Below are positions 1,922-31,892 of a stretch of DNA of 42,958 nucleotides, one piece after another. Each line of letters starts with the position of its first letter. The stretch's first letter is position 1. Source of the stretch: Sphingomonas bacterium (GTDB lineage: Bacteria > Pseudomonadota > Alphaproteobacteria > Sphingomonadales > Sphingomonadaceae). The position numbers were made by a program, and so were the translations under genes. The notes beneath the pieces are model-generated. The model saw only the letters and a list, made by a program, of their open reading frames with translations, was not told the DNA's origin and searched no databases. The stretch is from the NCBI RefSeq assembly GCF_028292925.1, contig NZ_JAQGLK010000062.1, positions 1-42,958 on the forward strand, in the 5' to 3' direction.

Positions 1922-3337
1922 ATGACATCCCCGGCGGCGGCATCCCCCGCCGATCGCTCCACTGCGGACGATCGCGCCTTCTTCGGCCATCCACGGGGGC
2001 TCGGCTATCTCGCTTTCTGCGAGGCGTGGGAGCGTTTCTCCTATTACGGCATGCAGACCTTGCTGGTGCTCTACATGGTCAACCGGCTGCTGCTGCCGGG
2101 CCATGTCGAGAACGTCGCCGGCTTCGCCCCGGTGCGGCGGATCCTGGAAAGCGCCTACGGCCCGCTTGCCCCCCAGCCGCTCGCCTCCGCGATCTTCGGG
2201 CTATATGCCGGCGGGGTCTATCTCACCCCGATCCTGGGTGGCTGGATCGCCGATCGGGTGCTTGGCCGCACCCGCACCATCACGCTGGGCGCGGTGCTGA
2301 TGACGGCGGGCCATTTCCTGATGGCGTTCGACGTCTCGTTCCTGATCGCCCTTCTGTTCCTGCTGGTCGGGGTGGGCTGCTTCAAGGGCAATATCGCCAG
2401 CCAGGTCGGCGAACTCTATGCCCCGTCCGATCTGCGACGCGCGGACGCCTTCCAGATTTTCCTGCTGGGCGTGCAGATCGCGGTGATCGTCTCGCCCCTG
2501 GTCTGTGGCACGCTGGGTCAGCAGGTGGCGTGGCACTGGGGTTTCGGTGCGGCGGGCATGGGCATGGTGATCGGCCTGCTCGTCTACCTGTCGGGGCGGC
2601 GCTATCTGCCGCCCGATCGCGTCCGCGTGCCGGGCATCCCCCGCCAGCGCCGCCGCCTCGCCACGGGTGAGGGCAAGACGATCGCCGTCCTGATCGCGCT
2701 GCTGCCGGTGCTGACGCTCGGCGTGGTCGGCAACCAGCAGATCTTCAACGCCTATCTGATCTGGGGCGATGCCAATTACGATCTCGTCTTTTTCGGCCGA
2801 TCCATGCCGGTCACCTGGCTCGTCTCGCTCGATGCGTTCGTCAGCACGGTCACGATGGCCGGCGCGCTCGGCTTCTGGCGCTGGTGGTCGCGCCGCCATG
2901 CCGAACCGGACGAGATCACCAAGATCCTGATCGGCACGATCATCTGCGCCCTCGCTCCGCTCGCGCTGGCCCTCGCCTCGTGGCAGCAGGCGGCGACCGG
3001 GCAGAAGGTCGGCCTCGGCTGGGGCATCGCCTTCCATGTCCTGAACGATATCGGCTTTGCCAACGTCCTCCCGGTCGGCCTCGCCCTCTATGCCCGCGCC
3101 GCGCCGCGTGCCGTGTCGGCATCGATGATCGGCGTCTATTATCTGCACCTGTTCGCCGCCAACATGTTCGTCGGGTGGCTCGGCGGGCTGCTCGGCACGA
3201 TGCCGGCGGGGCGGTTCTGGATGCTGCACTTCGCGATCATCGTCGGCTCGGCGGTGCTGCTCTTCATGTTCCGCGCGCTGTTTCGGCGCCGCCTGGCACC
3301 GTCTCAGGAAGCGGAGCCCGCCCCCGCTTTGGCCTGA
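1922..3337 (+). CDS. POT-family proton-dependent oligopeptide transporter (MFS)
   Basis: The product is a 471-residue multi-helix inner-membrane protein. The first helix carries the POT signature AFCEAWERFSYYGMQ (the ExxERFxYY proton-coupling motif). Further helices carry FGLYAGGVYLTPILGGWIAD, GRTRTITLGAV, and a late YYLHLFAANMFVGWLGG segment. These features support H+-driven import of di- and tripeptides or related compounds; the substrate cannot be read from sequence. The ATG at 1922 has no clear Shine-Dalgarno. A hairpin with arms CGGGCGA and TCGCCCG (1893-1912) lies directly before it and may mask or replace the ribosome site. The gene stands alone: the preceding pair ends at 1810 and the radical SAM gene begins about 60 bases downstream. 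Confidence 0.9.
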   Translation: MTSPAAASPADRSTADDRAFFGHPRGLGYLAFCEAWERFSYYGMQTLLVLYMVNRLLLPGHVENVAGFAPVRRILESAYGPLAPQPLASAIFGLYAGGVYLTPILGGWIADRVLGRTRTITLGAVLMTAGHFLMAFDVSFLIALLFLLVGVGCFKGNIASQVGELYAPSDLRRADAFQIFLLGVQIAVIVSPLVCGTLGQQVAWHWGFGAAGMGMVIGLLVYLSGRRYLPPDRVRVPGIPRQRRRLATGEGKTIAVLIALLPVLTLGVVGNQQIFNAYLIWGDANYDLVFFGRSMPVTWLVSLDAFVSTVTMAGALGFWRWWSRRHAEPDEITKILIGTIICALAPLALALASWQQAATGQKVGLGWGIAFHVLNDIGFANVLPVGLALYARAAPRAVSASMIGVYYLHLFAANMFVGWLGGLLGTMPAGRFWMLHFAIIVGSAVLLFMFRALFRRRLAPSQEAEPAPALA

Positions 3338-3380
3338 TCCGGCCGATCCGGTGCGCGGGTGATTGCGCCGCGGGCACCGC

Positions 3381-3395
3381 GAACATATATGGAAC
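3381..3395 (+). promoter_or_regulatory. Putative LexA (SOS) box GAAC-N7-GAAC
   Basis: The 15 bases GAACATATATGGAAC form a perfect GAAC-N7-GAAC direct repeat. Alphaproteobacterial LexA is known to bind this element (read on the other strand as GTTC-N7-GTTC). It ends two bases before the preferred start codon of a DNA-repair radical SAM gene, so repressor binding would block transcription or initiation there. Binding itself is inferred. Confidence 0.6.
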
Positions 3396-3397
3396 GG

Positions 3398-4645
3398 ATG
3401 GCCCGGCTCGATACGCGCGAAAAGCTTGCGATCCTGGCGGACGCGGCCAAATACGATGCTTCCTGCGCATCGTCCGGCACGGCCAGCCGCAGTTCCGCAG
3501 GCAAGGCGTCGGGTATCGGATCGACGGAGGGGATGGGCATCTGCCATGCCTAAGCGCCGGATGGCCGCTGCATCTCGCTGCTCAAGATCCTGCTGACCAA
3601 CAGCTGCATCTTCGACTGCCATTACTGCATCAACCGCAAAAGCTCGAACGTCCGGCGCGCCCGCTTCTCCGCGGATGAGGTCGTCCAACTCACGCTCGCT
3701 TTCTACCGGCGCAATTATATCGAGGGGCTGTTCCTCTCCTCCGGCATCATCCGCTCCTCCAACTACACGATGGAGCAGATCGTCGAGGTCGCCCGGTCGC
3801 TGCGCGAGGATCACGAATTTCGCGGCTACATCCACCTCAAGACGATCCCCGATGCCGATCCCGAACTGCTGCGCCAGGCCGGGCTCTATGCCGATCGCCT
3901 GTCGATCAACGTCGAGTTGCCGACTGATGGCGGCCTCGCCCGGCTTGCTCCCGAAAAGTCGGCGCCGCGCATCCGCGGGGCGATGAGCGGGCTCAAGACG
4001 GCGATCGATGACGGCAAGGATGCGAAGAAACGCTACCGCTCCGCGCCGAACTTCGCGCCGGCCGGGCAGTCGACGCAGATGATCGTCGGTGCCGATAGCG
4101 CCAATGATGGCGAGATCGTCGCTACCGCCAGCAAGCTCTACGATCGGTACGATCTGCGCCGGGTCTATTATTCCGCGTTCAGCCCGATCCCCGATGCCAG
4201 TGCGATTCTGCCGCTCCAGCGCCCGCCCTTGATGCGCGAGCATCGGCTCTACCAGGCCGACTGGCTGATGCGTTTCTACGGCTTTGCCCCGCGGGAGGTG
4301 GCACAGGCGACGGACGCTGCGGGTATGCTGCCGCTCGATATCGATCCCAAGCTTGCCTGGGCGCTCAGGTTTCGCGGCCGCTTCCCGGTCGACGTCAACC
4401 ATGCTCCCAAGGAGGATCTGCTCCGGGTGCCCGGTCTCGGCGTGAAGGCGGTAGGCTCGATCCTGAATGCCCGCCGCTGGCGCAAGCTGCGGCTGGAGGA
4501 TGTCGGCCGGCTGACCGTTTCGATCGCCAAGGTCCGCCCGTTCATCGCCGCGAGCGATTGGGTGCCGGGCGCCCTCACCGATCGTGCGGACCTGAAGGAA
4601 CGGCTTGCGCCCAGGCGCGACCAGCTCGAACTCTTCGCGGCCTGA
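3398..4645 (+). pseudogene. SplB-like radical SAM DNA modification/repair protein, interrupted by in-frame TAA at 3551-3553
   Basis: The frame encodes a SplB-like radical SAM protein of the type always seen beside UdgX and DUF4130 proteins. The first 51 codons give KLAILADAAKYDASCASSG and GICHA. Codon 52 is TAA, where homologues have an aromatic residue (GICH-A-Y/F). Directly after it the same frame continues undisturbed with APDGRCISLLKILLTN, the 4Fe-4S motif CIFDCHYC (codons 70, 74, 77), the long conserved block RRNYIEGLFLSSGIIRSS, and a C-terminal helix-hairpin-helix (VPGLGVKAVGSIL). One substitution (TAC or TAT to TAA) explains the break; no frameshift is needed. The next in-frame ATG (3770) lies beyond the cluster motif, so reinitiation would give an inactive piece. 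Starts at 3389 or GTG 3359 are alternatives. Recent nonsense mutation, sequencing error and readthrough are all possible. Confidence 0.85.
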
Positions 4646-4724
4646 ACTTTCCTACTCGCGGAGCCTCTGCGACACTCCGGCCGTTATCCACCCGGATCTT
4701 CCTGCAACGAACAGCATCGAAGCC

Positions 4725-4776
4725 GAACTTCCGAACTTCCGAACACCCTTCCTCCGCACGAACTTAGCGAACTTCC
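4725..4776 (+). repeat. Cluster of GAACTTCC-type direct repeats upstream of udgX
   Basis: The 140-base spacer between the radical SAM gene and udgX carries GAACTTCC at 4725 and 4733, a degenerate GAACACCC at 4741, GAACTTAG at 4760 and GAACTTCC again at 4769. Another GAAC lies at 4709. The first three copies have an exact 8-base period; the last two are 9 bases apart. None of the GAAC pairs has the 11-base spacing of the SOS box at 3381. The array ends about ten bases before the udgX start, so it overlaps the likely promoter or ribosome-binding region. Confidence 0.6.
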
Positions 4777-4785
4777 AGGGGTTAC

Positions 4786-6180
4786 ATGGCCGTTGTAACG
4801 CTCGCCGCCGAGGACGATTTCGATGGCTGGCGGGCCGCCGCGCGCCGCCTTTCGCTCGCCGGTGTGCCGGCCGCCGATATCGTCTGGCAGGTCGGCGATA
4901 CGCCGGTCGATCTGTTCGGCGGCGGGGCGGAGCCGGCCGCTGCTGCGCCGGGGGCGATCTTCTCGGTGCCCCGCGCCTTCCTGTCCCTTGCCGAAACCGC
5001 GATCTGCCACCGCGATCCGCAACGCTTTGCCCTGCTCTACACCCTGCTCGACCGGCTCCGCACCCAGCCGGGTTCGATCGACGACGAGGCCGATCCGCTC
5101 GTCCGCCGCATTGCCGGGATGGCCAAAGCGGTGCGCCGCGACATCCACAAGATGCGCGCCTTCCTCCGCTTCCGCGAGATCGGGGAGGGCGACGAACGCC
5201 GCTTCGTCGCCTGGTTCGAGCCGGAACAGCATATCGTCCGCGCCAATGCCGGCTTTTTCGTCCGCCGCTTCGCCACGATGCGCTGGTCGATCCTCACCCC
5301 CGAACTGTCGGTTCACTGGGATGGCGAGACGCTGACGGAGGCCCCCGGCGCGACGAAGGCCGACGCGCCGGACGGCGATCCGCTCGAGCAGACCTGGGCC
5401 ACATATTACGTCTCCATCTTCAATCCGGCCCGCGTCAAGATTGGTGCGATGCTGAAGGAGATGCCCAGGAAGTACTGGAAGAACATGCCGGAAACGGCGT
5501 TGGTGCCCGGCCTGATCGCCGGAGCGCAGGCACGGGAGGCCGGGATGATCGCGAATGCCAGGGCGGAGATCGGCGGCAACAGCCAGGCCGCGTGGGAGGC
5601 GCTGCGGGAGGAGGCGAAGGGCTGCACACGCTGCCACCTCTACAAGCCCGCGACGCAGACGGTGTTCGGCGAGGGGCCGGTCGATGCGCGGCTGATGCTC
5701 GTCGGCGAACAGGCCGGGGATCAGGAGGATCTGGCCGGCCGCCCGTTCGTCGGCCCCGCCGGGCAGCTGCTCGATCGCGCGCTGGCCGAGGCCGGGATCG
5801 ATCGCAGCGCCGCCTACGTCACCAACGCCGTCAAGCATTTCAAGTTCGAACAACGCGGCAAGCGGCGCATCCATGCCAAGCCCGACGGTGGCGAGATCCA
5901 GGCGTGCCACTGGTGGATCGATCAGGAACGCATGCTGATCCGCCCGCCCGTCACCGTCGCGCTCGGCGCCACCGCGGCGCGGGCGATGCTCGGCAAGATC
6001 GTCACCATCTCGCGCACCCGCGGCCAGCAGCACACATTGGCGGACGGCGGCGAATGCTGGGTGACCGTGCACCCCAGCTATCTGCTGCGCATCGACGATC
6101 GCGCCAGGGCTGACGACGAATACCGCCAGTTCGTCGAGGATCTGCGCAACGCCGGCCAGCGCGCGCTGGCGGCGGCATGA
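4786..6180 (+). CDS. udgX: DUF4130-UdgX fusion: uracil-DNA cross-linking repair protein
   Basis: The 464-residue protein joins two families usually seen as neighbours. Residues 1 to about 265 match the DUF4130 (TIGR03915) partner of radical SAM repair proteins, with FLRFREIGEGDERRFVAWFEPEQHI and MPRKYWKNMPET. From about residue 280 it is a family-4-like uracil-DNA glycosylase domain: cysteines in KGCTRCHLY for an Fe-S cluster, GEQAGDQEDLAGRPFVGPAGQ, and the UdgX hallmark loop GKRRIH, whose histidine (His363 here) is known in Mycobacterium UdgX to bond covalently to uracil in DNA. The C-terminal VTVHPSYLLR motif is also present. The start at 4786 follows the GAACTTCC array. The stop TGA directly abuts the smc stop on the other strand (TGATCA, 6178-6183). 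Confidence 0.93.
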   Translation: MAVVTLAAEDDFDGWRAAARRLSLAGVPAADIVWQVGDTPVDLFGGGAEPAAAAPGAIFSVPRAFLSLAETAICHRDPQRFALLYTLLDRLRTQPGSIDDEADPLVRRIAGMAKAVRRDIHKMRAFLRFREIGEGDERRFVAWFEPEQHIVRANAGFFVRRFATMRWSILTPELSVHWDGETLTEAPGATKADAPDGDPLEQTWATYYVSIFNPARVKIGAMLKEMPRKYWKNMPETALVPGLIAGAQAREAGMIANARAEIGGNSQAAWEALREEAKGCTRCHLYKPATQTVFGEGPVDARLMLVGEQAGDQEDLAGRPFVGPAGQLLDRALAEAGIDRSAAYVTNAVKHFKFEQRGKRRIHAKPDGGEIQACHWWIDQERMLIRPPVTVALGATAARAMLGKIVTISRTRGQQHTLADGGECWVTVHPSYLLRIDDRARADDEYRQFVEDLRNAGQRALAAA

Positions 6181-13766: not shown

Positions 13767-14429
13767 ATGGTTCGCTTTTCGTTCTGCTCGGTCGATCTCG
13801 TCGCATTGCCGCAGGGGGCGCTCTATTGGCCCGCCCGCCGCGCTTTGCTCGTGGCCGACCTGCACTTCGAGAAAGCGAGCTGGTTCGCGCGGTTCGGCCA
13901 GATGCTGCCGCCCTACGACTCGATCGCTACGCTGTCCGATCTCACCTCGCTTGTAGCCGCCACCGGAGCGGAAGAGGTCTGGTGCCTGGGCGACAGCTTC
14001 CACGATGCGCGGGGCTGCGAACGCCTGCCGCAACAGGCGCGCGAGATGCTGCGCGCGCTCACGGGCACGACCCGGTGGACGTGGATCACCGGCAATCACG
14101 ATGCCGGGATGACCGATCATTGCGGCGGTGCGCTGGTAGAGGAAGCGGAGGTCGATGGGTTGGTGCTGCGGCACGAGGCGGACCCGCGGGACCGGCGCCC
14201 CGAACTATCCGGCCACTACCATCCGAAGCTGCGGCTGACCGTCCGCGGGCGCAACGTTGCCCGGCGCTGTTTCGTGGCGGGGCCGAGCAAGCTCATCCTG
14301 CCGGCATTCGGGGCGCTGACCGGCGGGCTCGATGCCGGCCATCCCGAGATCGCGCGGGCGATCGGCGGGCGGGCGGAGGCACTCATCCCCGTCGCCGATC
14401 GGCTGCTCCGCTTCCCGATCGCCGCCTGA
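13767..14429 (+). CDS. pdeM: Ligase-associated DNA damage response endonuclease PdeM
   Basis: The protein is a calcineurin-like metallophosphoesterase of 220 residues. The metal motifs appear in order: LLVADLHFEKAS, VWCLGDSFHD, WITGNHDAG and SGHYHPK. This motif spacing and small size match PdeM, which usually travels with an ATP-dependent DNA ligase, an Lhr-like helicase and an MBL-fold exonuclease. Those three are in this window at 34.6, 20.9-23.2 and 23.6 kb. I chose ATG 13767; an upstream TTG at 13737 adds ten residues that do not look conserved. A TATAGC hexamer (13755-13760) six bases before the ATG suggests leaderless initiation. Its in vivo substrate is unknown. Confidence 0.9.
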   Translation: MVRFSFCSVDLVALPQGALYWPARRALLVADLHFEKASWFARFGQMLPPYDSIATLSDLTSLVAATGAEEVWCLGDSFHDARGCERLPQQAREMLRALTGTTRWTWITGNHDAGMTDHCGGALVEEAEVDGLVLRHEADPRDRRPELSGHYHPKLRLTVRGRNVARRCFVAGPSKLILPAFGALTGGLDAGHPEIARAIGGRAEALIPVADRLLRFPIAA

Positions 14430-15245: not shown

Positions 15246-18267
<3,022 letters not shown>

Positions 18268-20885: not shown

Positions 20886-23225
20886 TCAATCGATCCGCAT
20901 CGCCTCCGCGGCGAGCGACTCGGCCTCGATCAGCAGCGCATCGTCAGCCAGGCCGTGGCTGACTCTCTCACGCCCGATCAGCGTCAGCACCGGCACCGCC
21001 AGCGGTGACACCCGCTCCAGATCGACGTGCACCATCGTGCCGACGGCGCGTTCGATCAGGCTGCTGAGCCGGCCGACATCGGTCATCCGCGCCCGCGCAT
21101 CCTCCCAGGCCGCACGCAGCAACAGGTGATCGGGTTCGTAGCGACGCAGCACGTCGTAGATCAGGTCGGTCGAGAAGGTGACCTGCCTGCCGGTCTTGCG
21201 CTTGCCGGGATGCTGCCGCTCCACCAGCCCGCCGATCACCGCCACTTCGCGGAACGCACGCTTCAGCAGGTGCGAACTCTGCACCCAGTCGACGAACTCG
21301 TCCTCCAATATATCCGCCGAGAACAAGGCTGCAGGATCGGTGACCTTTTTGAGCGAATATGTGGCGAGCGCATAATCGTTGGAGACGAAGCCGAGCGGTT
21401 GCAGCCCCTGCGTTTCCAGCCGCCGGGTGAGCAGCATGCCGAGGGACTGGTGCGCGTTCCACCCCTCGAAGCTGTAGGCGACCATGTAGTTGCGCCCCTC
21501 GCGCGGGAACGTCTCGACCAGCAGCTGCCCCGGCGCCGGCACCACCGATCGCGCCGCCTGCACCTCCAGCCACTCGCGAACGTCGTTCGGAAAACGCCGC
21601 CACTCGCTGCGATCGTAGAGGAAGGCACGGACCCGGTCGGCCAGGCTGGTCGATAGCGGCATCCGCGCGCCGCCATAGGTCGGGACCCGAGCCGGCCTGG
21701 ACGATGCGCGGACGATCAGGTCCTCCGCATCGATCTTTTCCACCTCGCAGGAAATGCCGGCGAAGAAAAAGGTGTCGCCGCCCCGCAGCGTCGCCGCAAA
21801 CGCCTCCTCGACCTTGCCGAGCGAGCGGCCATTGCGGAACCGCACCGTCAGCATCGTCGCCTCGACGATGATCCCCGCGTTCAGCCGGTGCTGGGCGACG
21901 AAGCGGGGGTGGCTGACGCGCCACAACCCGTCCGCATCGCGGGTCAGCCGCTTGAAACGATCATAGGCGCGCAGCGAATAGCCGCCCGATTCGATGAACA
22001 GCAGCACCCGATCGAATACGTCGTCCGCCAGTGCCGCATAGGGCGCGGCGGTCCGCACCTCCGCCAGCAGGGCTCCCTGGTCGAAGGGCCCGGCGCAGGC
22101 GACCGCCATGATATGCTGGGCCAGCACGTCCAGGGCGCCATCGCGAAAAATGTCCGGATCGAGTTCACCGGCATCGACTGCATCGAGCGCCGCACGCGCC
22201 TCCAGATATTCGAATCGGTTGCCCGGAACGATCACCGCCTCGGATGCCTCGTCCAGCCGGTGGTTCGCGCGGCCGATTCGCTGCAACAGCCGCGACGATC
22301 CCTTGGGTGCGCCCATCTGGATGACGAGATCGACATCGCCCCAATCCACCCCCAGATCCAGGCTTGCCGTCGCGACGAGCGCGCGCAGCCGGCCGTCCGC
22401 CATGGCCTGTTCCACCTTGCGGCGCGCTTCGCGGCTGAGCGATCCGTGATGGATGCCGATCGGCAGGCCCTGCGGATTGTCCTTCCACAGATCCTGGAAG
22501 ATCAGTTCGGCAAGGCTGCGCGTATTGCAGAAAACGAGCGTGGTGCGGTGCGTCTCGATCTCCGCCATCACCTGCTTGGCGGCGTAGCGGCCGGAATGGC
22601 CGGACCAGGGGATGCGATCCTCGGGCAGCAGGATGGCGATGTTCGCCGCCGCCCCCGGATCGCCCTGGACCAGCGCGACCGAGCCGATGTCGCCGTCGGG
22701 CGATAGCCAGCCGCGATACGCGTCCGGATCGGCGACGGTCGCCGATAGTGCGACGCGCCGCAGCCCCGGCGCCAGTGCCTGCAACCGGGACAGGCAGAGC
22801 GCGAGCAGATCACCGCGCTTGCCGGTAGCGAAGGCATGGACCTCGTCGATCACGATCGTGCGCAGATCGGCGAACAGCCGCGCGCTTTCGGGATAGGAGA
22901 CAAGCAGGCTGAGCGACTCGGGTGTCGTCAGCAGCATCTGCGGCGGCCGGGTCCGCTGCCGCGCCTTTCGGTCGGAGGGCGTATCGCCGGTCCGCGTCTC
23001 GACGCGGATGTCGAGTTCCATCTCCTCGATCGGCGCGATCAGGTTGCGCTGGACGTCCACCGCCAGCGCCTTGAGCGGCGATACGTACAGCGTGTGGAGC
23101 GTATCGACCGGCCGATCGATGAGTTCGACCAGGCTGGGCAGGAACCCGGCAAGCGTCTTGCCCGCGCCTGTCGGCGCGACCAAAAGCGCGTGCCGCCCGG
23201 CCCGCGCCGCATCGAGCATCGCCAA
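20886..23225 (-). CDS. Ligase-associated DNA damage response DEXH-box helicase (Lhr-like)
   Basis: This large superfamily 2 helicase (779 residues from the TTG at 23225) has Walker A APTGAGKT, TPESLSLL, DEVH in IDEVHAFATGKRGD, SATV, GIHHGSLSREARRKVEQ and RIGRANHRLDEASEA. It ends with the long winged-helix and Lhr-type C-terminal domains. It belongs to the ligase-associated damage-response set, with the exonuclease gene 375 bases away. The N-terminus is odd: conserved-looking sequence LPEPLGRWFAAKGWSPRRHQ, with the Q-motif-like end, is encoded in frame upstream to about 23285. No ATG, GTG or TTG precedes it within that stretch, so initiation may use CTG at 23285 or the N-terminus is trimmed. 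Confidence 0.92.
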   Translation of the reverse strand: MAMLDAARAGRHALLVAPTGAGKTLAGFLPSLVELIDRPVDTLHTLYVSPLKALAVDVQRNLIAPIEEMELDIRVETRTGDTPSDRKARQRTRPPQMLLTTPESLSLLVSYPESARLFADLRTIVIDEVHAFATGKRGDLLALCLSRLQALAPGLRRVALSATVADPDAYRGWLSPDGDIGSVALVQGDPGAAANIAILLPEDRIPWSGHSGRYAAKQVMAEIETHRTTLVFCNTRSLAELIFQDLWKDNPQGLPIGIHHGSLSREARRKVEQAMADGRLRALVATASLDLGVDWGDVDLVIQMGAPKGSSRLLQRIGRANHRLDEASEAVIVPGNRFEYLEARAALDAVDAGELDPDIFRDGALDVLAQHIMAVACAGPFDQGALLAEVRTAAPYAALADDVFDRVLLFIESGGYSLRAYDRFKRLTRDADGLWRVSHPRFVAQHRLNAGIIVEATMLTVRFRNGRSLGKVEEAFAATLRGGDTFFFAGISCEVEKIDAEDLIVRASSRPARVPTYGGARMPLSTSLADRVRAFLYDRSEWRRFPNDVREWLEVQAARSVVPAPGQLLVETFPREGRNYMVAYSFEGWNAHQSLGMLLTRRLETQGLQPLGFVSNDYALATYSLKKVTDPAALFSADILEDEFVDWVQSSHLLKRAFREVAVIGGLVERQHPGKRKTGRQVTFSTDLIYDVLRRYEPDHLLLRAAWEDARARMTDVGRLSSLIERAVGTMVHVDLERVSPLAVPVLTLIGRERVSHGLADDALLIEAESLAAEAMRID

Positions 23226-23289
23226 TTGGTGCCGCCTGGGGCTCCACCCCTTGGCCGCGAACCAGCGGCCGAGGGGTTCCGGCAGAAGA

Positions 23290-23496
23290 TCAGACGTCGC
23301 GGCGCTCCGCCCTGGCCGCGTCGCCGGCCTTATCCTCGCGATCGATCGTCTTGTAGAGCTCGTGCGTTGCCGCCTCGGTGCGCTGCTTGGCGCCCTTCGA
23401 CCGGCGGTTGCTCAGTACAGCCCAGAGCAGGACCACGCCGAGCAGGATCGGGCCGAGGATCGTCAAAAGCCCCCACATGCTTGAACCGTCTACCAT
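23290..23496 (-). CDS. Small single-pass membrane protein between the helicase and exonuclease genes
   Basis: The 68-residue product has one hydrophobic segment (MWGLLTILGPILLGVVLLWAVL) followed by a basic, then highly charged tail rich in Glu, Arg, Asp and Lys (cytoplasmic by the positive-inside rule). The start at 23496 has GGAG seven bases upstream; ATG 23478 is an alternative. The stop lies within the in-frame extension of the downstream helicase, so the two genes are tightly linked and perhaps translationally coupled. It is divergent from the exonuclease gene at 23600. I recognise no named family; such short TM plus charged-tail proteins are frequent in sphingomonads. Confidence 0.7.
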   Translation of the reverse strand: MVDGSSMWGLLTILGPILLGVVLLWAVLSNRRSKGAKQRTEAATHELYKTIDREDKAGDAARAERRDV

Positions 23497-23599
23497 GCCG
23501 CTTCTCCGATTCATCGCGTCGCACCGATCAACGATCCATGCCCGCGCAAGTATCCGCCGATGATGGACGGGGCGCGGGCAGCACCCCATATCGGCTGAT

Positions 23600-24598
23600 A
23601 TGGCGCGCCTTGGAAACTGGATCGATCCCCATCCCGAGGGGATCTACGTGCCCGCCGCGGATGCCTGGATCGACCCGTCCGAACCCAAGCCCCGCGCGCT
23701 GGTCACCCATGGCCATGCCGATCACGCCCGCGGCGGCCACGGCGCGGTGCTCGCCACGCCCGAGACGCTGGCGATCATGGAATGCCGCTATGGCGGGCAG
23801 AAGGGCCAGCCGATCGCCTATGGCGAATCGATCCGGCTCGGTGATGTCGACGTGTCGTTCGTCCCCGCCGGCCATGTGCTCGGATCCGCTCAAATCGTGC
23901 TGGAGCACAAGGGTGAGCGGGTCGTCGTCTCCGGCGATTACAAGCGCCGGCCGGATCCCACCTGCGCACCGTTCCAGCCGGTGCCCTGCGACATCTTCGT
24001 CACCGAGGCGACATTCGGGCTGCCCGTGTTCCGCCACCCCGATACCGGTGCGGAAATCGACCGGCTGCTCGAGGCGCTGCATGCCAATCCGGAACGCTGC
24101 GTGCTCGTCGGCGCCTATGCACTCGGCAAGGCGCAGCGGGTCATCATGGAACTGCGCGGGCGGGGCCACGACGCCCCGATCTTTCTCCACGGCGCGCTGC
24201 AGCGCCTATGCGATCTGTACCTGGAACACGGCGTGCCGCTGGGCGAACTGCGTGCAGCGACGGGGCTGAAGGCGGCGGAAATGCGCGGCGGCATCGTCGT
24301 CGCGCCGCCGTCCGCGCTCAACGATCGCTGGTCGCGCCGCCTGCCGGATCCGATCACCGCGATGGCATCGGGCTGGATGCGGGTGCGGCAGCGCGCCCGC
24401 CAGAAGAATGTCGAGCTGCCGCTGATCATCTCCGATCATGCGGACTGGGACGAGCTGACCGCCACCCTGATCGAGCTCGCACCAACGGAGGTGTGGGTCA
24501 CGCACGGGCGTGAGGACGCCCTCGTCCACTGGTGCATGACCCGCCAGATCAAGGCCCGCGCGCTCGATCTCCTCGGCTTCGAGGACGAGGACGATTGA
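23600..24598 (+). CDS. Ligase-associated DNA damage response exonuclease (MBL/beta-CASP fold)
   Basis: The 332-residue protein is an mRNA-3'-end-processing-factor-like nuclease, related to SNM1 and CPSF73. Motifs: VTHGHADHARGGHG (metal ligands), PAGHVLGSAQIVLEH, VVSGDYKRRPDPT, VTEATFGLP, and near the C-terminus LPLIISDHADWDEL and VWVTHGRED. It is known from context to accompany an ATP-dependent DNA ligase, an Lhr-like helicase and PdeM. The start ATG follows the divergent 68-residue protein gene by about 100 bases. Its stop codon lies inside a hairpin shared with the convergent phosphohexomutase stop. Confidence 0.93.
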   Translation: MARLGNWIDPHPEGIYVPAADAWIDPSEPKPRALVTHGHADHARGGHGAVLATPETLAIMECRYGGQKGQPIAYGESIRLGDVDVSFVPAGHVLGSAQIVLEHKGERVVVSGDYKRRPDPTCAPFQPVPCDIFVTEATFGLPVFRHPDTGAEIDRLLEALHANPERCVLVGAYALGKAQRVIMELRGRGHDAPIFLHGALQRLCDLYLEHGVPLGELRAATGLKAAEMRGGIVVAPPSALNDRWSRRLPDPITAMASGWMRVRQRARQKNVELPLIISDHADWDELTATLIELAPTEVWVTHGREDALVHWCMTRQIKARALDLLGFEDEDD

Positions 24599-30958: not shown

Positions 30959-31614
30959 GCGGAATCCTTTGCGGGCGCCGGGGCGGGCGTCAAGGCCGTC
31001 GGTGCAGGGCCGTCCCGAAAGCGATCCAGCACCCACGTTTTGGCCTCCGCCCAGCCGTCGATCCGGGCGTGCGCGGTCTCGGCGGGGCGCAGCTTCACCT
31101 GCGGCTCGGCAACCATGTGCAGCCGCCACACGCCCGGCGCATGCTCCGCCACCGAATTGTGGTGGATCGGCAGATCGTCCACGAACACCGCTACCGTAGG
31201 CTGGTATTCGCGCAGCAGGCGGCCGACCGGCACCCCCTTGCCACCCTGGTTGCAGACCACGCGATGGCGGATGCCCAGTGCCTCCAGCTGCGCCACGCGC
31301 CCGGCATGGCAGTGCTGGCCGAGGTTGGTCAGCACGACGATGTCGGCCACCTCCGCAATCTCCTCCAGCGCCTCGCGGGCGTGGGGGGCGATCGTCTGGC
31401 GGTGCATCTCGGTCGCGAAGAATGCGTCGAGCAGCGGCCACATCTCGTCCGGTGCGAGCGGCGGGCCGCCGGCGCGGCGCTTCATCGCGTTCGCAAACTC
31501 GCCGTTGGCCGGCCAGAAGTCGATTGCGTGCGCCTCGTCCAGCCAGTCGCGAAAGTGCGACAGCATGTGCAGCAGCACCTCGTCGCAATCGGTGATGAGC
31601 AGCGGGCGGCTCAT
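30955..31614 (-). CDS. HAD-superfamily hydrolase
   Basis: The 219-residue protein is a HAD-like phosphatase: motif I appears as LLITDCDEVLLHM (DxDxV), motif II as VVLTNLGQ (the T), and motif IV as VAVFVDDLPIHHNS (DD). The lysine of motif III may be the one in NQGGKGVPV. Bulky sequence between motifs I and II forms a cap domain. Substrate unknown. The C-terminal 20 residues are alanine/proline-rich. It is coupled on both sides by 4-base overlaps, with DUF3572 upstream and RidA downstream. Confidence 0.85.
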   Translation of the reverse strand: MSRPLLITDCDEVLLHMLSHFRDWLDEAHAIDFWPANGEFANAMKRRAGGPPLAPDEMWPLLDAFFATEMHRQTIAPHAREALEEIAEVADIVVLTNLGQHCHAGRVAQLEALGIRHRVVCNQGGKGVPVGRLLREYQPTVAVFVDDLPIHHNSVAEHAPGVWRLHMVAEPQVKLRPAETAHARIDGWAEAKTWVLDRFRDGPAPTALTPAPAPAKDSA

Positions 31615-31892
31615 GCCTCGAGCGCCTGGTGCGCGCGGACGAGTAGCTCCGGCTTCACCCCCAGCGCATCGGCGCAGGCGACAAGATCGGGCTCGTACGC
31701 TTCGAGGAAGGCGAGTACCGCGCCGAGCACCGCAGGATCGGCGGCGCGCGCGCGCAGATCGTCAGGCGCCAGCCCGGTGACGGCCAGCAGCCGCTCGGCC
31801 CGTGCGGCGTCGCCAAGCGTCCAGGCGAGCGCGGAGAGGCCGAGGGCGATGGCATCGCCGCCGGATTGGCGGTTTGTGTCGGGGGTCTGCAT
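31611..31892 (-). CDS. DUF3572 family protein
   Basis: The 93-residue protein is all-helical in character and matches the alphaproteobacterial DUF3572 family: AIALGLSALAWTLGDAARAERLLAVTGLAPDDLR and AVLAFLEAYEPDLVACADALG. It has no signal or membrane segment; function unknown. It is the first gene of the minus-strand operon, with its stop inside the start of the HAD gene. It is divergent from divK, with 38 bases between starts, an arrangement seen in other alphaproteobacteria. Confidence 0.88.
   Translation of the reverse strand: MQTPDTNRQSGGDAIALGLSALAWTLGDAARAERLLAVTGLAPDDLRARAADPAVLGAVLAFLEAYEPDLVACADALGVKPELLVRAHQALEA

Follow-up and report, generated by a model that had tools for sequence, protein, structure and literature searches.

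A probable, very recent nonsense inactivation of a radical SAM DNA-repair gene behind an SOS-type box in a Sphingomonas bacterium

Introduction

How is a putative DNA-repair gene of the radical SAM type to be read when one in-frame TAA interrupts a frame that otherwise appears intact? The question is raised by positions 3398-4645 (plus strand) of a 42,958-nucleotide stretch of DNA from a Sphingomonas bacterium (referred to here as the window, by which we mean the whole stretch that was analysed). The draft genome to which the window belongs as a single contig measures 2.81 Mb in 224 contigs, is 95.22% complete and holds one match to the radical SAM gene. An earlier note on this DNA had offered three explanations for the TAA, namely a very recent inactivation, a sequencing error or a readthrough event; the first two survive the analysis described below and the third finds no support in it.

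Results

An in-frame TAA precedes the cluster motif of an otherwise open radical SAM frame

When the TAA at codon 52 is read through, positions 3398-4645 translate into one protein of 415 residues. The 5' part of the gene (codons 1-51, positions 3398-3550) corresponds to the N-terminal part of TIGR03916, the TAA is present at positions 3551-3553, where the earlier note had placed it, and the rest of the frame (positions 3554-4645) remains open for 363 codons up to a TGA at 4643-4645. The read-through protein matched TIGR03916, a family named rSAM_link_UDG and described as a 'putative DNA modification/repair radical SAM protein', over profile positions 2-396 of 415 with a score of 558.9 bits (cut-off 343.5), and the Pfam Radical_SAM domain was matched in the same frame with 33.2 bits against a cut-off of 29.5. 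The CxxxCxxC cluster motif, CIFDCHYC, occupies codons 70-77 (positions 3605-3628) and is thus preceded by the TAA; the claim that a full radical SAM core together with its cluster motif follows the stop is borne out by these matches. In an alignment of 46 sequences (that of the window together with 45 of 129 relatives), the cysteines of this motif (C70, C74 and C77) were invariant, as were the N-terminal residues Y19, D20, C23, C49 and H50. The gene therefore resembles other TIGR03916 members in its near-whole profile match above the curated cut-off, its CxxxCxxC motif and its adjoining DUF4130-UdgX gene, and differs by one in-frame TAA at codon 52; lacking an uninterrupted frame able to give an enzyme, it is, as assembled, a disrupted member of the family.

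From the TAA through the end of CIFDCHYC there is no ATG, GTG or TTG in frame. The earlier statement that no start codon exists ahead of the motif is accordingly right for these three codons and wrong for rarer ones, since three CTG and three ATC codons (one of the latter within the motif) lie in frame over the same stretch. The first in-frame ATG past the TAA, at positions 3770-3772, opens a reading frame of 291 amino acids (3770-4645), and a product restarted there would be without the cluster motif.

Structure searches added little to this picture. A phmmer search of the PDB (E up to 1) returned only a ComEA-related protein (0.55) and HydG (0.72). An AlphaFold2 model built from the 46 sequences had a mean pLDDT of 73, with residues 17-48 below 50, and the best 50 of its 1437 Foldseek matches comprised generic radical SAM folds (LIAS, HydE, MiaB and viperin) among unrelated barrels, with TM-scores to the query of 0.21 to 0.36. 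No spore photoproduct lyase was present by name among these best 50 of 1437 matches, which is a weak absence for one moderate model, and the fold search neither supports nor excludes a lyase.

Codon 52 is a tyrosine codon in all relatives compared

We located 139 copies of the gene, which were reduced to 130 distinct copies (the window included) after identical sequences had been collapsed; four loci consisting of weak paralogues and a C-terminal piece (L027-L030, the piece being from genome G027) were excluded from the relatives' counts. Codon 52 encodes tyrosine in 129 of the 129 distinct relatives (98 TAT and 31 TAC), so that the aromatic residue that the earlier note had supposed at this position is specifically tyrosine. 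No stop was found within the aligned stretch in any of these relatives, no two of which reach 99% protein identity. The comparison set contains one genome of the same genus, G001, and no strains of the same species; this congener carries an uninterrupted copy with 90% identity and likewise has tyrosine at codon 52. The nearest named relatives of the protein in a genome collection, a search that may omit records of the window's own genome, were from Sphingomonas and related genera, with at most 84% identity.

Matches to the radical SAM gene were found in 259 of 397 genomes of the family, and 252 of these were strong once seven weak matches (E 1.9e-5 to 6.1e-4), which are probably paralogues, had been taken out; many members of the family thus lack the gene. 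When we screened the copies of other genomes for stops among the matches listed, five genomes (G108, G227, G299, G330 and G065) appeared to have stops inside the gene. We rejected all five, because each match is stop-free up to residue 413, which identifies the stops as C-terminal ends. In the one-contig genome G027 (locus L139) the radical SAM gene is divided between two frames, with the junction near codon 340, and the DUF4130 partner beside it is open; G027 may thus be a second genome in which a broken radical SAM gene is accompanied by an open partner.

The interrupted gene retains the marks of constraint

Of the 184 alignment columns on which 97% or more of the other sequences agree, codon 52 is the only one at which the window gene deviates, in agreement with the earlier claim that the rest of the gene is undamaged (114 of the 130 rows, the window included, depart no more often than this). 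Lowering the threshold to 90% (245 columns) adds one deviation, at residue 287, which G001 shares. Next to the TAA, 36 of the 40 residues before it and 40 of the 40 after it are identical to those of the congener. Past the TAA, comparison with G001 gave a dN of 0.059, a dS of 0.576 and a dN/dS of 0.103 (by NG86), and only 27 of 1449 comparison pairs, chosen for a dS of 0.3-0.8 and no more than 230 differing codons, had a lower ratio. Relative rates measured against 127 of the 128 outgroups placed the dN of the window on average 0.003 below that of the congener (sd 0.010), which amounts to no excess on the window branch, and its dS 0.08 above (sd 0.11). The neutral share of the branch was estimated as nil when the lower-5% ratio of the pairs (0.132) was taken as the ratio under selection, and as 9 to 14% when a harsher and arbitrary ratio of 0.06 was used. 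Measured against the time since the split from G001, an inactivation would thus have to be recent; if it is real, the substitution pattern suggests that it is very young.

The TAA is, in the assembly, a disabling change of the kind that defines a pseudogene, whereas relaxed constraint or further decay was absent by the dN/dS of 0.103 and by the lack of any other departure at columns conserved in at least 97%. Neither the window gene nor the copy in the congener G001 showed the decay elsewhere in the gene that the earlier note had named, for sister strains, as the sign of an ordinary pseudogene. An older pseudogene was rejected on the combined basis of dN/dS, relative rates and near-invariant columns. 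As generally understood, recent bacterial nonsense pseudogenes carry a single disabling change while the rest of the frame is still constrained, as is seen here, and the window gene differs from them only in having an open partner with which it normally co-occurs.

An SOS-type box lies directly upstream

The alphaproteobacterial LexA box has the form GTTC-N7-GTTC. A LexA-type SOS box recognized by its pattern, GAAC-ATATATG-GAAC (GAAC-N7-GAAC), is located at positions 3381-3395 (plus strand), 2 bases before the ATG, and has the same spacing. In a search that began 150 bases upstream of the gene and ended 15 bases inside it, with the start of each copy taken from the alignment, we found GAAC-N7-GAAC or GTTC-N7-GTTC near the start in 125 of the 130 copies (window included), and in 101 of the 130 an SOS-type site stood at exactly the distance seen in the window. 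By the exact pattern, L022, L023, L092, L110 and L141 had no such site, and an equal-length control stretch inside the gene contained the pattern in 0 of 130 copies. In the same 101 copies the box takes up the 17 bases immediately ahead of the ATG, where a ribosome-binding site would be expected. The middle of the box (TATATG, -12 to -7) could, to judge by its position, serve as the -10 element of a leaderless message; a promoter scan of positions 3200-4900 found no sigma-70-type site. A second GTTC-N7-GTTC site, at 13770-13784, is within a gene that has a weak, below-cut-off match to metallophosphoesterases (shuffled sequences lead one to expect about 0.6 sites of this type per window).

In alpha- and beta-Proteobacteria, a gene named splB has been proposed to be under SOS control (PMC3323433). 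Its resemblance to the gene studied here is by description and consists in the SOS-type box just upstream (125 of 130 copies); splB is called a spore photoproduct lyase homologue in that paper, whereas the window gene gave no such match to solved structures by sequence or among the best 50 of the 1437 fold-search matches.

The partner gene is open but carries unusual substitutions

Downstream of the radical SAM gene by 140 bases begins a gene at positions 4786-6180 (plus strand) in which DUF4130 (TIGR03915, 202.4 bits) is fused to UdgX (TIGR03914, 312.9 bits), both scores being above cut-off. The earlier note had called this udgX partner undamaged, which is correct in that its frame is open but overlooks two substitutions at near-invariant sites, one of them in motif A. 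Partner sequences were near-complete at 99 of 181 loci, and with one duplicate of the congener dropped there remained 98 distinct relatives. Residue 310 (positions 5713-5715) is alanine in the window and proline in 98 of these 98, so that motif A (5704-5718) reads GEQAG, and residue 375 is histidine in the window and arginine in 96 of 98. Checked against the UdgX motifs GEQPG, KRRIH and HPS(S/A)(L/V)(L/V)R, the window thus has GEQAG, an R-loop of KRRIH and a motif B of HPSYLLR, the last being the commonest motif B among the 98 relatives. Compared with UdgX as described in PMC10359453, the partner shares the R-loop KRRIH with its cross-linking histidine and the GEQ of motif A, and differs in having GEQAG for GEQPG, a DUF4130 fusion and the motif B HPSYLLR.

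The number of departures is not exceptional, since 15 of the 99 rows (the window included) have at least two at partner columns conserved in at least 97%. The dN/dS of the partner against G001 is 0.19, and its identity to 97 outgroups averages 0.6 points below that of the congener. Because G001 has proline at residue 310, the change to alanine (P310A) falls on the same branch as the TAA; going by sequence conservation, P310A may lean slightly, though it is no proof, toward the view that the gene pair has truly lost its function.

Genome lists for the two genes were compared by hand. A strong radical SAM match was present in 252 genomes and a TIGR03915 match (E at most 0.001) in 253, of which 250 were above cut-off; both genes occur in 249 of the 256 genomes that have either, so that an open partner next to a disrupted gene is unusual. 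Of the seven genomes with a single gene, several of which are drafts, four have only the partner (G070, G179, G320 and G413) and three only the radical SAM gene (G140, G279 and G333). Note that co-occurrence is not the same as adjacency; in G006, for example, the two genes are on different contigs. The partner family is also present in Caulobacter vibrioides. An association of DUF4130 with uracil glycosylases and with radical SAM proteins resembling SplB, which may belong to the family studied here, is described in PMC3765255; in the literature searched, no paper turned up that names both UdgX and radical SAM.

Neighbouring genes

Directly upstream of the radical SAM gene, at positions 1922-3337, is a gene for an oligopeptide symporter of the POT/MFS type. 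G001 has no counterpart of the symporter at that place, where approximately 350 bases separate the flanking matches, and the difference could be either a gain in the window or a loss in G001. Farther along, at positions 20886-24598, an Lhr-type helicase gene (minus strand) adjoins a gene of the metallo-beta-lactamase fold (plus strand), a pair that we take to resemble a repair cluster.

Discussion

We consider it probable that the TAA is a real nonsense mutation by which a radical SAM DNA-repair gene under SOS control has been inactivated. According to this explanation, a change that is seen in no compared relative would have disabled the gene very recently. The frequent absence of the gene elsewhere in the family, and its division between two frames in G027, fit such a loss. 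LexA should, to judge by the box, still control the transcript, and translation should stop after 51 residues, ahead of the cluster-binding motif, so that presumably no active enzyme would be made. The rest of the frame would still look selected because there has been too little time for it to drift, as dN/dS and the relative rates suggest, and the DUF4130-UdgX partner may still be made, perhaps in reduced amounts through polarity.

Counting against inactivation are the draft of 224 contigs, the dependence on a single change that has no second, confirming one, and the open partner, all of which could point instead to a consensus or assembly error, or to a mixed sample in which the TAA belongs to a minority allele, with the gene in reality intact and encoding the full 415-residue enzyme. 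We regard such an error as possible but distinctly less likely. One base is enough to account for the TAA, the completeness of the draft (95.22%) and the near-constant co-occurrence of the two genes are in keeping with an error, and full constraint on the remainder of the gene fits a sequence error equally as well as a recent inactivation. The accuracy of the assembly speaks to some extent on the other side: in the window's genome, internal stops were found in 0 of 34 matched stretches of ABC_tran and 0 of 11 of Radical_SAM, the latter a limited control because the gene's own Radical_SAM match begins past the TAA. Moreover, when the window was compared with six contigs of G001, no stop but the TAA at codon 52 had, in our reading by eye, high identity both before and after it (shadow-frame stops with low flanking identity or before a start codon having been set aside by eye), and no second convincing stop emerged in the genes compared. 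The nearest approach to one, near position 31762 on the minus strand (21 of 40 residues identical before it and 24 of 40 after it), was set aside as a second case, as it seems to precede a start at 31614 and to fall between divergent genes. A single consensus error would be compatible with all of these checks; still, real pseudogenes with a single nonsense mutation are common in bacterial genomes.

The other explanations keep the TAA and rescue the enzyme, and we judge each of them to be very improbable. That a near-cognate tRNA inserts a residue at the UAA, giving a little full enzyme under SOS conditions, would be consistent with the constrained frame past the TAA and with the full-length chain that a residue at codon 52 would restore, yet programmed readthrough or reassignment would lead one to expect a conserved stop, and a stop is present in 0 of 129 relatives. 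All 39 tRNA genes that ARAGORN found in the genome have sense anticodons (the set is incomplete, as it contains no tRNA-Ile, and a stop-reading tRNA could be missing), and TAA terminates another gene of the window (15246-16508). UAA recoding is not known to us from this lineage, and a literature search for stop codon readthrough in Sphingomonas found no paper. Recoding was accordingly rejected on the unconserved stop and the lack of a stop-reading tRNA among those found, and nothing supports it beyond the open frame past the TAA. Fainter still is the prospect of a split gene, in which a second start at one of the three CTG or two ATC codons in frame between the TAA and the cluster motif would yield a shortened, cluster-binding enzyme; this stretch has no ATG, GTG or TTG, no aligned relative has a stop there, and the shortened product would lose the conserved N-terminal part with its invariant Y19, D20, C23, C49 and H50. 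We give just as little weight to a species-private arrangement in which a real stop is tolerated through leaky UAA decoding, so that a dose-limited amount of enzyme would be made when LexA allows abundant message.

Inactivation and sequence error are both ordinary events, and none of the present observations requires a new decoding mechanism. If the TAA is an error, the result amounts to a curation note. If, as we think probable, the stop is real, the locus would be a natural loss of the radical SAM repair enzyme in a genome where its usual DUF4130-UdgX partner is still open, and would thus bear on whether either of the two proteins works alone.
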